A stretch of DNA of 64,000 bases. Source: Alkalicoccus daliensis (GTDB lineage: Bacteria; Bacillota; Bacilli; Bacillales; Salisediminibacteriaceae). The DNA is taken from positions 1 to 64,000 of the forward strand of contig NZ_FNIL01000003.1 of assembly GCF_900103955.1 (NCBI RefSeq), read 5' to 3'. Positions within the stretch are counted from its first letter, which is position 1; every line of letters starts with the position of its first letter. Positions 5,672 to 57,433 of the stretch are shown here, in pieces. The notes beneath the pieces were generated by a model. It was not told where the DNA came from, did not search any database, and saw nothing but the letters and a program-made list of their open reading frames with translations. A program made the position numbers and the translations under genes.

Positions 5672-6961
5672 ATGGAATTTACAAAATCTGAACAGTTATA
5701 CAAAGAAGCAAATGAAGTGATTCTGGGAGGCGTAAACAGTCCTTCCCGAGCATATAAAGGTGTTGGCGGAGGCACACCTGTATTTATGGAAAAAGCGGAG
5801 GGCGCTTACTTCTGGGATGTGGACGGAAATAAATATATTGACTATTTAGCAGCATACGGACCGATAATTACAGGACACGCGCACCCTCACGTAACTAAAG
5901 CGATTCAGGATGCAGCAGCTGACGGCGTTCTTTACGGCACCCCTACGGTTTACGAAAATAAATTTGCTGCCATGCTTCAGGATGCTATGCCGGCACTTGA
6001 GCGTGTTCGATTCGTTAACTCCGGTACGGAAGCAGTGATGACTACGATACGGGTAGCCAGAGCTTATACAGGCAGAAATAAAATCATTAAATTTGCAGGC
6101 TGTTATCACGGACATTCTGATTTAGTACTCGTTGCAGCCGGATCTGGTCCCTCAACCACAGGAAACCCTGATTCTGCTGGAGTAACGAAAAACATAGCAG
6201 AAGAAGTAATTACGGTTCCCTTTAACGACCTAGATTCTCTGGAAAAAGCAATCGGACATTTTCATGATGAGATCGCTGCCGTTATGCTGGAGCCTATCGT
6301 TGGGAACTTCGGTATTGTAGAACCGGAACCGGGATTTTTAGAAGCTGTTAATGATTTAACACATGCAAATGGCTCACTGGTGATTTATGACGAAGTAATT
6401 ACTGCTTTTCGATTCATGTATGGCGGAGCGCAGGATTTACTGCAGATAAAACCTGATCTTACCGCAATGGGCAAAATCATCGGCGGTGGGCTTCCAATTG
6501 GAGCCTATGGTGGAAGAAAAGATATAATGGAACAAATCTCCCCTCTTGGACCGGCGTATCAGGCAGGGACTATGGCTGGAAATCCGGCTTCGATTCGTGC
6601 AGGAATTGCCTGCCTGGAAGTACTTCAGCAAAAAGAAACATACCAGGAACTGGACCGGCTTGGACAGAAACTGGAAGAAGGAATTGTAAAAGCAGCTGAC
6701 AAATATGAAATACCGGCTATTGTTAACCGTCTTCACGGAGCACTGACAGTATTTTTTGACGTTAAAGAAGTTAAGAATTTTGCTGACGCGGAAGCGAGCA
6801 GCACAGAATTGTTCGCCTCTTTTTTCAAAAAACTTCTTCAACGAGGGATCAATCTGGCTCCTTCTAAATTCGAAGCACTTTTTCTTACAATTGCTCATAC
6901 AGATGAGGATATTGATTATACAATCGAACAGATTGAACAGGTTTTCTCCGAAGGTCTTTAA
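5672..6961 (+). CDS. gsaB: Glutamate-1-semialdehyde 2,1-aminomutase
   Basis: A 429-residue PLP enzyme of the HemL/GsaB family that converts glutamate-1-semialdehyde to 5-aminolevulinate for tetrapyrrole synthesis. The PLP-binding Lys is K268 in [14 protein letters not shown]. The cofactor Asp is in [10 protein letters not shown] (residues 238-247), and NSGTEA lies at 116-121. Length equals that of B. subtilis GsaB. Its place next to perR and ygaE is the gsaB paralogue location, not the hemAXCDBL operon, so gsaB is the better symbol than hemL. AAAAGGAG precedes the ATG by about eight bases. Confidence 0.95.
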
Positions 6962-6973
6962 TTCCTTCCATTT

Positions 6974-7000
6974 CCTCCGCACAGCTGCGGAGGTTTTTTT
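6974..7000 (+). terminator. Intrinsic terminator of gsaB
   Basis: The stem CCTCCGCA / TGCGGAGG with loop CAGC is followed directly by seven T residues, 12 bases after the gsaB stop. Confidence 0.9.
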
Positions 7001-7241
7001 ATTTAATCTTTATCTGGCCGCAGAATTGCTTTTCCTCCTGTATTAATAATACATCTGAAAATATGAATTCAGCTGTCTTAACAATGAAAGCGATTCTATG
7101 AAAACTATAAAAAATTTCACTTTTCTGATCATATTTTTTAAATTTTTTATCTCCTTGAAATAGAGGGTTAAGAGGTGTATTATACATGGAGACTCTTACC
7201 AAATAAAATAATTTTAAATGAAGAAAGGAACATTATTTATC

Positions 7242-8321
7242 ATGAGGCTTGGAGCCCGAATATTTAAAACTGGGTTATCGGTTACATTTGCCCTCTATGT
7301 AGCAATGTGGCTGAATTTTGAAACCCCGGCCTTTGCAGGGTTAGCTGCCTTTTTCACAGTACAGCCTTCTGTATACAAAAGTTTAACTTTAATCTGGGAT
7401 CAAATACAGGCAAATATCATTAGTGCTGTTCTTGCGATTACGTTTGTACTGGCATTTGGCGCGGAACCTTTTGTGATCGGAGCAGTAGTGCTGCTTATCA
7501 TTGCAATTCATATCAGGTGGAAAAAAGAAGCCATTATTCCGCTGGCAGTGGTGACAGCAATACTTATTATGGGAAGCCCCTCAGATGACTTCTTTAACTT
7601 TGCTGCTGACAGATTTATATTAATCATGGTTGGAGTATTTTCTGCATTTGCAGTAAATATGGTGTTTCTCCCGCCGAAACATGAAAATCAGCTTTACCAC
7701 AAAGTATCCGGAATAAACGAAGAAATTATTCAGTGGATCCGTTTAATCCTTCATCATGAAATAGATTATGGAACACTCAAAGAAGATCAGAATAAAATAC
7801 GTTCTTCCATTGTAAAGCTGGAGACCCTCTATACGCTTTACAAAGAGGAGCGCAGCATTTTCCGAAGATCGGAATATTCAAGAATGAGAAAAATTGTTTT
7901 GTTCCGCCAGATGATCCGTGCAACAAGAAAGGCAGAAGATATTTTAAAAAGCCTCGCAAAGCACGACCATGTTACGCATCAGCTTCCGAATGAAATAGAG
8001 GAAATAATTCGTCACCAGCTGGATGATTTAACGAATTATCATGAACGTGTCATTTTGAAGTATGCAGGTAAAGTAAGAGCTCACTCTACCTCTGAATATT
8101 ATGATGAAGTGATGGATGGAAAAAAGAAATTAGTGCAGATATTTATGACTTATCAATCAGATAAAGAGTTTGATTATGAGGCCTGGATTCACTTCCTCCC
8201 GGTCATTGCTCTTGTTATTGAATACTCGGAGGAACTGGAACACATGGACAGACTGGTAGATGGATTCTTTACCTTTCACACCGAAGATAATGAAGTTGAT
8301 ATCGATAAGAAAGAGCTGTAA
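7242..8321 (+). CDS. ygaE: YgaE-like aromatic acid exporter family membrane protein
   Basis: An integral membrane protein of the FUSC/aromatic acid exporter superfamily. Four to five hydrophobic helices fill residues 10-145, followed by a long, charged cytoplasmic helical domain (about 145-355). FETPAFAGLAAFFTVQPSV is the conserved first-loop motif. The substrate is unknown. I prefer the ATG at 7242 (MRLGARIF, as in YgaE), behind GAAAGGA; an ATG at 7218 has no ribosome binding site. Downstream of gsaB, as in B. subtilis. Its stop codon lies within the stem of the terminator that is duplicated around the next repeat. Confidence 0.82.
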   Translation: MRLGARIFKTGLSVTFALYVAMWLNFETPAFAGLAAFFTVQPSVYKSLTLIWDQIQANIISAVLAITFVLAFGAEPFVIGAVVLLIIAIHIRWKKEAIIPLAVVTAILIMGSPSDDFFNFAADRFILIMVGVFSAFAVNMVFLPPKHENQLYHKVSGINEEIIQWIRLILHHEIDYGTLKEDQNKIRSSIVKLETLYTLYKEERSIFRRSEYSRMRKIVLFRQMIRATRKAEDILKSLAKHDHVTHQLPNEIEEIIRHQLDDLTNYHERVILKYAGKVRAHSTSEYYDEVMDGKKKLVQIFMTYQSDKEFDYEAWIHFLPVIALVIEYSEELEHMDRLVDGFFTFHTEDNEVDIDKKEL

Positions 8322-8344
8322 ACGCTATGTTTACAGCTCTTTCC
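8309..8344 (+). terminator. Intrinsic terminator of ygaE (left copy of a 36-bp direct repeat)
   Basis: A 14-bp stem AAAGAGCTGTAAAC / GTTTACAGCTCTTT encloses the loop GCTAT, and its left arm contains the ygaE stop codon. The same 36 bases recur at 8878-8913 with one mismatch in the loop, flanking a repeat element. Confidence 0.9.
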
Positions 8345-8877
8345 AGGCTGTTGAAAAATATTTTTTCTGTATAAGTATGCGCTTTTATGCTTTGTCTTCG
8401 AAGGTACGCTTTCCGGAGGGAACTCTCTCAGCTAACCTGCCTCCGGCAGGTGGATCTTCGAATCGTCCTAAATCCTCCCGGAGTCGACCTTTTGCGACTG
8501 CAGCATAATTAAGAGAGGCAATGATTTTTATACGAAACCGCAGAGATACGAACACTTTTTCTTCGGAAATAACTTTTCTCCATAGCGCCCGGCGGTGACA
8601 GCGGGATTCAAGCGCAGTCTGTGAGAGAATGCCCCAACGATTTTTCTGGACATTCTCTTAAAACATGAGGGAAGCCAGCCAGGGTTTTGCATTCATCTCG
8701 TATGCTTTTTCCGAGATGGATGTGGCTGCGTGGACACATGCTCTTCTTATTTGGTTGTATCCGGCAGGCATTGAAAATAGCTGAAGACCGGTCGGCAAGC
8801 TTCCGCCGGAAAGCGGAGGAGAACCCATCCACAGCAAATCATAAATATACAAAATTTCTTACTTTATAAACACTCTG
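8345..8877 (+). repeat. Family II repeat element, copy 1
   Basis: This 533-bp element without convincing genes recurs inverted at 32176-32663. Its left end reads CCAGGCTGTTGAAAA (overlapping the terminator by two bases) and the right end, reversed, CCAGAGTGTTTATAAAG, giving imperfect terminal inverted repeats. Shared internal blocks include GTATGCGCTTTTATGCTTTG near the left end, CTTCGAAGGTACGCTTTCCGG, and a core at about 8661-8747 with GCCAGCCAGGGTTTT and TGTGGCTGCGTGG. It is flanked on both sides by the same 36-bp terminator, which looks like a target duplication. No transposase is present, so any mobility would be in trans. Confidence 0.85.
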
Positions 8878-54848: not shown

Positions 54849-54912
54849 ATTCAAATATACATTTGAATATAATGACTCTATAAGATATAATACAATCAAA
54901 TATATATTTGAA
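54849..54912 (+). promoter_or_regulatory. cadCA promoter with two CadC operators
   Basis: -35 TTGAAT (54863-54868) and -10 TATAAT (54886-54891) are 17 bp apart. ATTCAAATATACATTTGAAT (54849-54868) covers the -35, and the perfect palindrome TCAAATATATATTTGA (54897-54912) covers the transcription start region. Both are of the ArsR/SmtB 12-2-12 type used by CadC. Binding would block polymerase until Cd, Zn or Pb is present. Confidence 0.85.
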
Positions 54913-54927
54913 TAAGGATGGTGCTCT

Positions 54928-55290
54928 ATGAAAAGGGATGACCAGTGTGAGATTTTTACTTTTGATGAAGCAAAGGTATCAAGACTGCAGGAAGAAATTT
55001 TATCTGAAGATGTAGATATGATGGCCGGGATGTTTAAAGCGCTGGCTGATAAAACCCGTATGCATATTGCTTATGCACTCAGTCTGGAACCAGAACTATG
55101 TGTATGTGATATTGCCCAGATCACAAATACTTCCAGTGCAACCGCCTCCCACCACCTCCGTACGCTGAAGAAGCTGGGTCTTGCCCGGCACCGTAAACAG
55201 GGAAAGCTTGCTTTTTATTCACTGGAAGATGGTCATATCCGGCAAATGATAAAAATGGCTTATGAACACAGCCAGGAAGAACGAGTTTAA
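54928..55290 (+). CDS. cadC: Metal-responsive repressor CadC (ArsR/SmtB family)
   Basis: A 120-residue winged-helix repressor. ELCVCD in the recognition region is the metal box. Cys7, Cys58 and Cys60 coincide with the numbering of the Cd/Pb ligands of staphylococcal CadC, while Cys11 of that protein is replaced by Thr. The alpha5 zinc site is also kept: D101, H103, H114 and E117. It should leave its operators when Cd, Pb or Zn binds. AAGGATGG precedes the ATG. The ATPase gene follows 31 bases downstream. Confidence 0.95.
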   Translation: MKRDDQCEIFTFDEAKVSRLQEEILSEDVDMMAGMFKALADKTRMHIAYALSLEPELCVCDIAQITNTSSATASHHLRTLKKLGLARHRKQGKLAFYSLEDGHIRQMIKMAYEHSQEERV

Positions 55291-55321
55291 ATATATGAGC
55301 TGCTCGAAAGGGGGTTGAGAC

Positions 55322-57433
55322 ATGAGTGATCATCCTGTAACAACATATCGGATTGAAGGATTTACCTGAGCAAACTGTGCAAAAACGTTCGAAGAGAACG
55401 TGCAGCGCCTGGATGGTGTTGAAGATGCAAGAGTAAACTTTGGTGCTGCTAAAATAACCGTTTTTGGAGCAGTATCTAAAGAAAAAGTAGAAGAAGCAGG
55501 AGCTTTTGAAAATTTAAAGCTGCGGGAGCTCTCCGAAAGGTCTTCTTCCCGCAGACCTTTTTGGAAACAAAAACAAAACATCCGCCTTTACTTAGCAGCT
55601 TTGTTATTACTAATTAGTCTCGCAGCCAGCTATACCCTCCCTGCTGATCATGTTTTGCCTGTTTTTGGCTATACAGCTTCCATAATTATAGGAGGCTGGA
55701 CGCTTTTTCAAAAAGGATTTAAAAATCTTGTTCAGGCTAAATTTGACATGAACACATTGATGACGATTGCAGTTATCGGTGCGGCTATTATCGGAGAATG
55801 GATCGAGGGCGCAGTAGTAGTTATTTTATTCGCTGTAAGCGAGGCGCTCGAACGTTATTCCATGGATAAAGCGCGACAGTCTATTTCTTCGCTTATGGAT
55901 ATCGCACCAGATAAAGCGCTTATCAAACGTAATAATGAAGAAATGACCGTTCCTACTGCTGATATTCAAATTGGAGATATTTTAATCATTAAACCAGGGG
56001 AAAAAGTAGCTATGGATGGCTCTGTGACAAAAGGAGACTCTTCGATTAACGAAGCTGCTATTACCGGCGAAAGTATCCCTGCTGCAAAAACACCAGGAGA
56101 TGAAGTATACGCAGGCACTTTAAATGAAGAAGGTCTTCTGGAAGCAGTAGTAACAAAAAGAGTAGAAGATACGACCATTGCAAAAATTATTCACCTGGTA
56201 GAAGAAGCGCAGGCAGAAAAAGCTCCTTCGCAGGCGTTTGTAGATCAATTCGCACAATATTACACTCCTTTTATCATTATTATTGCTTTTTTCACTGCAA
56301 TGCTGCCTCCCTTAGTAATGAACGCTCCCTGGAGTGAGTGGGTGTATTTAGGACTTGCAGTGCTTGTGGTAGGCTGTCCCTGTGCCTTGGTGATTTCCAC
56401 GCCGATCGCAGTTGTTACAGCTATCGGCAATGCAGCTAAAAATGGTGTGCTGATAAAGGGCGGCGTCCATCTGGAAACTGCAGGTGCGATCAGCGCAGCA
56501 GCATTTGATAAAACAGGTACACTGACCGAAGGAGTTCCCGTTGTTACTGACATTGTCTCATTTAATACGAATGAGAAGGAAATGCTTTCAGTGCTGGCGG
56601 CGATCGAAAAAGGCTCCCAGCACCCTCTCGCCTCCTCGATTATTAAGAAAGCTGATTCATTAAAAATTAATTATCATCTCTGGGAAATCGATAATTTTCA
56701 ATCCCTGACTGGCTTAGGCCTTCAGGCAACTGTGAACGGAACCATTTATTATGCGGGAAGCCCGAATTTGTTTAAGCAGCTTCACGGTTCGCTTTCCAGG
56801 GAGACCGAGGAATTAATTTCAGCAAAAGAAACCGAAGGAAATACGGTAATACTTCTTGGAGATACACACGAATTACAGTTAATAGTTTCTATAAGTGATC
56901 AAATAAGAGATACCGCAAAGCGCACTTTAACAGAGCTGAATAATATGGGTATAAAAACAATTATGCTGACTGGTGATAATGAAAGAACAGCGAAATCTAT
57001 TGGCTCAAAAGCAGGCGTTACAGACATACGGGCAGGACTGCTCCCAGAAAGCAAACTTTCTTATATCAAAGAATACGTGAATGCAGACAAAAAGGTAGCT
57101 ATGATAGGAGATGGAGTAAACGATGCCCCGGCCCTTGCAGCTGCTTCAGTAGGAATCGCAATGGGCGGTGCCGGTACGGATACTGCACTGGAAACAGCAG
57201 ATATTGCTTTAATGGCAGACGATTTAGATAAACTCCCTTATACTATTAAACTCAGCAGGAAAGCTTTAAAAATTATCAAACAAAATATAACATTCTCTTT
57301 AGCTATTAAAGCAGCTGCGCTGCTTCTCGTTATCCCAGGGTGGTTAACGCTGTGGATTGCTATTGCTGCAGATATGGGCGCAACCCTGCTTGTCACACTT
57401 AACAGCCTGAGACTCTTAAAAACTAAAAAATAA
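55322..57433 (+). CDS. cadA: Cd/Zn-transporting P1B-ATPase CadA with in-frame UGA at the HMA Cys codon
   Basis: A heavy-metal P-type ATPase that exports Cd(II), Zn(II) and Pb(II). From ATG 55322 (behind AAAGGGGG) the frame spans 703 codons, the usual CadA length. Codon 16 is UGA (55367-55369), in YRIEGFT-[UGA]-ANCAKTFEENV, exactly the first Cys of the CxxC metal-binding motif of the N-terminal HMA domain. Downstream everything is intact: TGES (248-251), CPC (352-354), DKTGT (396-400), the HP motif in SQHPLAS, GDGVNDAPA and eight membrane helices. Possible readings are selenocysteine insertion, UGA readthrough, a nonsense mutation with reinitiation at GTG 55400 (giving a protein lacking the HMA domain), or a sequencing error. 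A hairpin follows the UGA (see next entry). Confidence 0.85.
55385..55401 (+). other. Hairpin downstream of the cadA UGA, bacterial SECIS-like
   Basis: ACGTTC-GAAGA-GAACGT is a 6-bp stem with a five-base loop that begins with G. The loop starts 21 bases after the UGA. An additional TGC/GCA pairing is possible on the outside with a four-base bulge. Stem, distance and loop G satisfy the loose published criteria for bacterial SECIS elements, but the same bases encode the common TFEEN sequence, so chance cannot be excluded. Confidence 0.4.

Follow-up and report, generated by a model that had tools for sequence, protein, structure and literature searches.

The cad locus and its in-frame UGA

The window, by which we mean the whole stretch of 64,000 nucleotides of Alkalicoccus daliensis DNA that was analysed (contig NZ_FNIL01000003.1), carries on its plus strand a regulator gene, cadC, followed by a pump gene, cadA. 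The locus opens with two operator-like imperfect palindromes that can be read from the sequence, an upstream copy, ATTCAAATATACATTTGAATAT (54849-54870), and a copy adjoining cadC, AATCAAATATATATTTGAATA (54894-54914), both of which we take to resemble cad operators. The reading frame at 54928-55290 encodes a regulator of the ArsR/SmtB type (NCBIfam HTH_metalloreg, 87.7 bits with a cut-off of 55; Pfam HTH_5), which bears out the CadC-type neighbour described in the original prediction, and its product contains ELCVCD, presumably a meaningful motif in a regulator of this type. The ribosome-binding site of cadA, AAAGGGGG, lies at 55307-55314, and cadA itself extends from ATG 55322 to a stop codon ending at 57433, so that the gene was correctly described as complete from ribosome-binding site to stop, with 703 residues when UGA is translated as selenocysteine (Sec, U).

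The frame is otherwise open, both in the sequence and in translation, and the one exception is codon 16 (55367-55369), which is UGA. Specifically, this codon replaces the first metal-binding Cys of the N-terminal HMA domain (residues 8-58, 55343-55495), where GFT-UGA-ANC stands for the usual GFTCxxC, while the second Cys is retained and the site reads U-A-N-C with TGA translated as U. The position had been predicted as such, and the sequence, its translation, the Pfam domain PF00403 and an alignment to 2AJ0 (a 'probable cadmium-transporting ATPase' with a solved N-terminal domain, the first CxxC Cys of which is matched by residue 16) all agree on it. The remainder of the protein is that of a CadA-type P1B ATPase: the HMA domain is followed by the E1-E2 ATPase (residues 195-374) and HAD hydrolase (390-608) domains found with Pfam (together 55904-57145), the CPC (within GCPCAL) and DKTGT motifs can be read in the translation, and the protein with U at residue 16 scores 606.2 bits with the heavy-metal ATPase subfamily TIGR01525 (cut-off 346.25) and 511.2 bits with the cadmium ATPase subfamily TIGR01512 (cut-off 313.5). 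Cd, Zn or Pb are its predicted substrates, to judge from the family and the cadC neighbour. Under the default genetic code the long frame starts at GTG 55400 and has 677 residues, and standard annotation may therefore misread cadA as truncated.

UGA and cysteine alternate at a single codon

Homologues were collected by protein search, followed by reading of the loci at the DNA level, in a set of 60 genomes (the window's own genome and 59 relatives). The 49 aligned loci comprise 30 with UGA, from 28 genomes (G027 and G033 have two such loci apiece), and 19 with TGT or TGC, in each case exactly at the codon of the first HMA Cys. The motif scans of these loci, and of the order stretches described below, sought a stop or Cys alone at the codon; in the first reading of this set, all 30 of 30 loci had TGA, TGT or TGC there and none had TGG. 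A genome scan of GTDB gave the same picture for the best 80 of 147 relatives, 46 of them with UGA and 34 with Cys, as all 80 loci had TGA (46), TGT (24) or TGC (10) and TGG occurred in 0 of 80. The alternation of UGA and Cys that the original prediction had proposed to look for among homologues is thus found, and at exactly the codon-16 position.

An order-wide sample supplied 60 additional stretches (56 TGA-flagged and 4 stop-free rows), which give no estimate of frequency because the rows were chosen by their TGA flag. The motif was found in 57 of the 60, and G226, G249 and G117 also have UGA at the codon on separate reading; all 66 TGA rows among the 150 best order matches have their TGA at the codon-16 position (10 of these were already in the 60-genome reading). 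Carriers of UGA cadA include Alkalicoccus saliphilus, A. urumqiensis, Cytobacillus firmus, C. oceanisediminis, Schinkia azotoformans, Sporosarcina globispora, Bacillus timonensis, Peribacillus acanthi and Aneurinibacillus tyrosinisolvens. Pooling yielded 186 sequences (129 UGA, 57 Cys), or 159 distinct ones (105 UGA, 54 Cys), excluding G226, G249 and G117 and with some genomes shared between the sets. UGA at this codon lies far beyond chance and is no nonsense mutation peculiar to the window's genome.

In a phylum sample of 398 genomes, 51 genomes passed E 1e-180 and 15 of the 51 rows contained an internal TGA. Twelve TGA-flagged phylum rows lie outside the order, and 10 of these have UGA at the codon (G695 has TGC there and G741 gave no motif match); the Sec form of cadA is therefore not limited to Bacillales. 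One UGA cadA from another class (G811:C20:2771-4861) is 65% identical to that of the window, closer than many members of the order, which may point to a possible horizontal transfer. Two further observations concern the matches themselves: a second ATPase match in G043 (C1:3758668-3760602) lacks the HMA part and has two internal TGA codons, and the plasmid matches listed (15 and 25) are all heavy metal translocating P-type ATPases by annotation.

Intact frames, selection and repeated change

The length of the frame was examined in 129 loci (49 from the 60-genome set and 80 from the GTDB scan), 76 of them with UGA. No further disruption was seen in 73 of the 76, which continue for at least 600 codons without another stop, and in two others (L192 and L194) no stop occurs before the available sequence ends. 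The sole clearly damaged UGA copy is that of Neobacillus muris (L202), with a stop 78 codons past the UGA. Three close pairs of UGA cadA genes gave dN/dS values of 0.16, 0.11 and 0.07, and two pairs with dS above 2 gave 0.08 and 0.09; two pairs involving the window gene were saturated. The near-identical genes L016 (genome G011, TGT) and L019 (genome G027, UGA) differ by a dS of 0.002, and their ratio of 0.59 is meaningless because the pair is too similar.

A tree of 115 distinct cadA rows was built with FastTree from alignments excluding the HMA region; three short loci were dropped beforehand, as were 11 rows with a body identical to another, including L019, which is the UGA counterpart of L016. 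At least 16 changes between UGA and Cys are needed on this tree, at least seven of them forced by well-supported branches, although many of its branches are weak and the tool warned of long branches meeting. When the labels were shuffled, about 38 changes were needed on average, and 0 of 500 shuffles came as low as the observed number. The UGA/Cys label is clustered yet labile.

Selenocysteine machinery and other selenoproteins

The sel genes that the original prediction proposed to search for are all present in the window's own genome. A tRNA-Sec lies on contig C15 (424984-425076) with 59.2 bits, above the Rfam gathering score of 47, and ARAGORN calls the same locus tRNA-SeC with anticodon tca. 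It is adjoined by selB (387.3 bits, cut-off 242.25), and the same locus holds selA (518.5 bits, cut-off 267.9) and selD (407.9 bits, cut-off 125). The selD gene (L093:9448-10500, minus strand) itself has an in-frame UGA, in the context KKAG-UGA-GCK; an internal TGA is found in 41 of the 44 selD matches of the 60-genome set, with the codon itself read in the own selD only.

Across the 60 genomes, tRNA-Sec exceeds the gathering score in 43 and SelB exceeds its cut-off in the same 43. Both are above cut-off in 27 of the 28 genomes with UGA cadA, and the exception, G034, is a genome 76% complete with 6% contamination, where even a wider search gave no tRNA-Sec. In the order sample, tRNA-Sec was found in 179 of 397 genomes. 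The cadA search matched 265 of these 397, and in the best 150 rows, which were analysed, tRNA-Sec was found in 61 of the 63 genomes that have a UGA copy and in 17 of the 68 whose copies in these rows are all stop-free (Fisher p 5e-19, uncorrected for relatedness). Among the genomes tested behind the GTDB-scan loci, it is present in 11 of 11 UGA carriers and three of seven Cys carriers. No tRNA-Sec was found in G200 and G065, wider search included, despite an intact UGA cadA; in both (L123 and L131, respectively) the gene is whole and next to a cadC-like ORF, a stop-free copy is also present, and the UGA copy can be read as a probable recent acquisition. Two side observations concern the tRNA gene: in G123 a UGA cadA (L100, about 6714-8830, minus strand) lies about 8 kb from a tRNA-Sec at about 16857 on the same contig, and five genomes (G083, G103, G166, G423 and G433) have two tRNA-Sec matches each.

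Formate dehydrogenase was surveyed through Fdh-alpha matches (E up to 1e-100, a TGA being counted at any position). Such a match with an internal TGA occurs in 15 of the 60 genomes, so that UGA cadA is the commoner of the two (28 vs 15), and 15 of the 28 UGA cadA genomes, the window's own among them, have no TGA-bearing Fdh-alpha match. The own genome has three Fdh-alpha (formate dehydrogenase-like) matches, none with an internal stop, and within the families searched (cadA, selD, Fdh-alpha and UxxU metal-binding) it has UGA in selD and cadA only. Fourteen of the 43 tRNA-Sec genomes in the set have neither UGA cadA nor a TGA-bearing Fdh-alpha match; therefore further selenoproteins presumably exist, and we do not claim that CadA is the only client of the Sec machinery.

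A SECIS-like hairpin follows the UGA

A feature absent from the original prediction is a SECIS-like hairpin at 55385-55401, with a 6-bp stem ACGUUC/GAACGU (55385-55390 with 55396-55401) that starts 15 nt past the UGA and an apical loop GAAGA (55391-55395) 21 nt past it. Its stem, loop, G and spacing agree with the bacterial SECIS model given in a figure legend of PMC13188914, namely an apical loop of 3-9 nt, an upper stem of 4-16 bp, a G in loop positions 1-2 and a spacing of 16-37 nt. A single consensus for all UGA sequences was rejected, as RNAalifold on 29 of them gave a short weak helix only; the reason is that the set combined two architectures with different registers, and the problem disappeared once the two were treated apart. 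The 105 distinct UGA sequences fall into class I, the window type (n=90), and class II (n=15), the commonest form of the latter being CUGCUC(G/A)-GUU-(C/U)GAGC(A/G)G with its loop 17 nt past the UGA.

Of the 90 class I sequences, 80 have G-C at pair 21/33, eight have A-T and two have G-T; pair 24/30 forms in 86 of them (C-G in 77, T-A in seven and T-G in two) and is unpaired in four. The four columns of these two covarying pairs all fall on third, synonymous codon positions. Seventeen of the 90 lack pair 20/34. Pair 20/24 of class II occurs as G-C in 10 sequences and as A-T in four, and is unpaired in one. Among the Cys sequences, pair 21/33 is formed in 37 of 54 and pair 24/30 in 29 of 54, with C-G at the latter in two. 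All six class I pairs are found in 69 of 105 UGA sequences vs two of 54 Cys sequences, and a looser pairing threshold is reached by 105 of 105 and 20 of 54, respectively, and part of the class I pairing is thus a product of codon constraint; most Cys homologues have no such hairpin or a weak one. All 105 UGA sequences have G as their first loop base, which in class I is no evidence, since that base opens an invariant Glu codon and is also G in 54 of 54 Cys sequences.

For covariation, two alignments were shuffled, one of 16 class I sequences and one of 14 class II sequences. The observed score was reached by 0 of 500 (class I) and one of 500 (class II) shuffles, and every slid register scored lower. 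Pairs changed on both sides (two in class I, one in class II) were matched by 82 of 500 and 431 of 500 shuffles, and the further pair types by 500 of 500 and 464 of 500, respectively. Folding energy was compared with synonymous-codon shuffles that preserve the protein, and was significantly lower (p<0.05) for 20 of the 30 UGA loci and for one of the 19 Cys loci (median z -2.1 vs -0.1; Mann-Whitney p 9e-8), while the stem score was in excess in 18 of 30 and one of 19. For the window hairpin under the same shuffles, the free energy is significant (p 0.002, z -3.7) and the stem score is not (p 0.11); with dinucleotide shuffles the hairpin is unremarkable (z -1.5, 16 of 200). The UGA genes outside the order show short stems only, by a simple hairpin scan.

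A few Cys forms retain the hairpin. Bacillus sp. MCCB 382 (L161), the genome of which has tRNA-Sec, keeps all six class I pairs, and two Alkalihalophilus loci (L154 and L160, including A. pseudofirmus OF4) keep five of the six, again with tRNA-Sec present; each looks like a fairly recent change from Sec to Cys. Across the relatives, the UGA, the hairpin that follows it and the Sec machinery go together.

Relation to known selenoproteins

Sec-containing P1B heavy-metal ATPases with a UxxC motif are already listed as a selenoprotein family (COG2217/TIGR01525; example ABB15669.1), and a 2016 survey counts 32 genes in 25 organisms (PMC5029168). A 2006 count gives three selenoproteins in Bacillales (PMC1794560). 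The listed family shares with the window cadA its protein class (TIGR01525) and the UxxC motif (here U-A-N-C), and by these two features the window gene belongs to it. The selenocysteine claim is therefore right, in all probability, but less new than it might seem. The listed example differs in that we take it to come from the clostridial anaerobe Carboxydothermus, whereas the form in the window is spread through Bacillaceae and their neighbours. No description of a Sec-containing CadA in Bacillaceae was found in the titles and abstract openings of the papers listed, and the supplementary tables of PMC5029168 may name Bacillales carriers. The present analysis adds how widely Sec cadA is distributed among Bacillaceae, the occurrence of two SECIS architectures at the same codon, and pairs of Sec and Cys genes that exist in nature.

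Ordinary CadA/ZntA P1B ATPases in the Cys form (e.g. 2AJ0) have the same domains and motifs as the window protein, which is 53-66% identical to 19 fetched Cys relatives, but they have Cys where the window has the proposed Sec at residue 16, and most of them show a weak hairpin or none. The UxxU metal-binding (seleno)protein NF041115 is HMA-like and, as at the window site, named for Sec in a metal motif; unlike the window ATPase, it is a small single-domain protein (a 74-position model). Membership of the window cadA in that family was rejected (27.5 bits with a cut-off of 95), and among the NF041115 matches listed for relatives none has an internal TGA. Sec-containing mercuric transport proteins, namely MerP and a putative mercuric transport protein, are listed as well in PMC2398784 and PMC13188914. 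They resemble the window cadA in placing Sec in heavy-metal handling and are otherwise different proteins. Neither MerP nor the putative mercuric transport protein is known to be an ATPase.

Selenocysteine and the alternatives

The sequence features by which a bacterial selenoprotein is recognized are found together here: an intact gene with UGA, Cys in the homologues, a SECIS-like hairpin, and SelA, SelB, SelD and tRNA-Sec. We therefore consider it very probable that the window's cadA codes for a selenoprotein in which Sec is inserted at the UGA, and the computational checks (machinery, UGA/Cys alternation and intact loci) support the original reading of the codon. A nonsense mutation would instead leave cadA broken, or would yield a shorter pump without the HMA site through restart at GTG 55400. 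Cys codons and UGA are one base change apart, the GTG opens the frame of 677 residues noted above, and such pumps can probably do without their HMA domains; but the UGA is conserved in tens of genomes with a downstream frame that is intact and under selection, and UGA cadA is tied to tRNA-Sec. The restart fares no better as a general explanation, since the Val codon at 55400 is GTG in only 54 of the 105 distinct UGA sequences and a GTG restart is thus not conserved. The pseudogene reading was rejected on the former grounds and a conserved restart on the latter, which leaves this explanation very improbable for the window gene.

It is also conceivable that the UGA is read as another amino acid independently of SelB, by near-cognate Trp or by an opal suppressor tRNA of the Cys type, and some bacteria do carry such suppressor tRNAs. 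The alternating residue is nevertheless Cys and never TGG (30 of 30 and 80 of 80 loci), the hairpin and tRNA-Sec accompany the UGA, and the UGA-reading tRNA found by ARAGORN, in part of the genome's tRNA set, is tRNA-Sec, so that such a reading is extremely unlikely. A different question is whether Sec, once inserted, might serve solely as a selenium-dependent gate on production of the pump, without any advantage in metal binding. With the UGA after only 15 codons there would be no full-length product without Sec, and Cys forms are common and intact, both of which suit a gate; against it, every long locus read has its internal UGA at the codon of the metal-ligand Cys, a placement that a mere gate does not need. 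We regard this explanation as unlikely, though less so than the other two.

A proposed selenolate ligand in a metal pump

If selenocysteine is indeed inserted, SelB with Sec-tRNA(Sec) would use the hairpin, whose stem starts 15 nt past the UGA, to place Sec at residue 16, giving a U-x-x-C metal site in the HMA domain. A selenolate, softer and more readily ionized than a thiolate, would then sit in the cytoplasmic metal-binding domain of the pump and bind soft metals (Cd, Pb, Zn and possibly Hg); alternatively, Sec may make the HMA site redox-responsive. With a UGA as early as codon 16, production of full-length pump would be tied to the supply of selenium. The physiological gain may lie in higher affinity for soft metals, faster exchange or redox control. 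More tentatively, and with rather more doubt than confidence on our part, the Sec machinery may in many Bacillaceae be kept largely for CadA, with a selenolate HMA ligand linking metal tolerance to the availability of selenium. Many Bacillaceae carry the same pump in either a Sec or a Cys version, the near-identical pair of G027 (UGA) and G011 (TGT) included, and such natural variants would make the role of Sec as a metal ligand directly testable.
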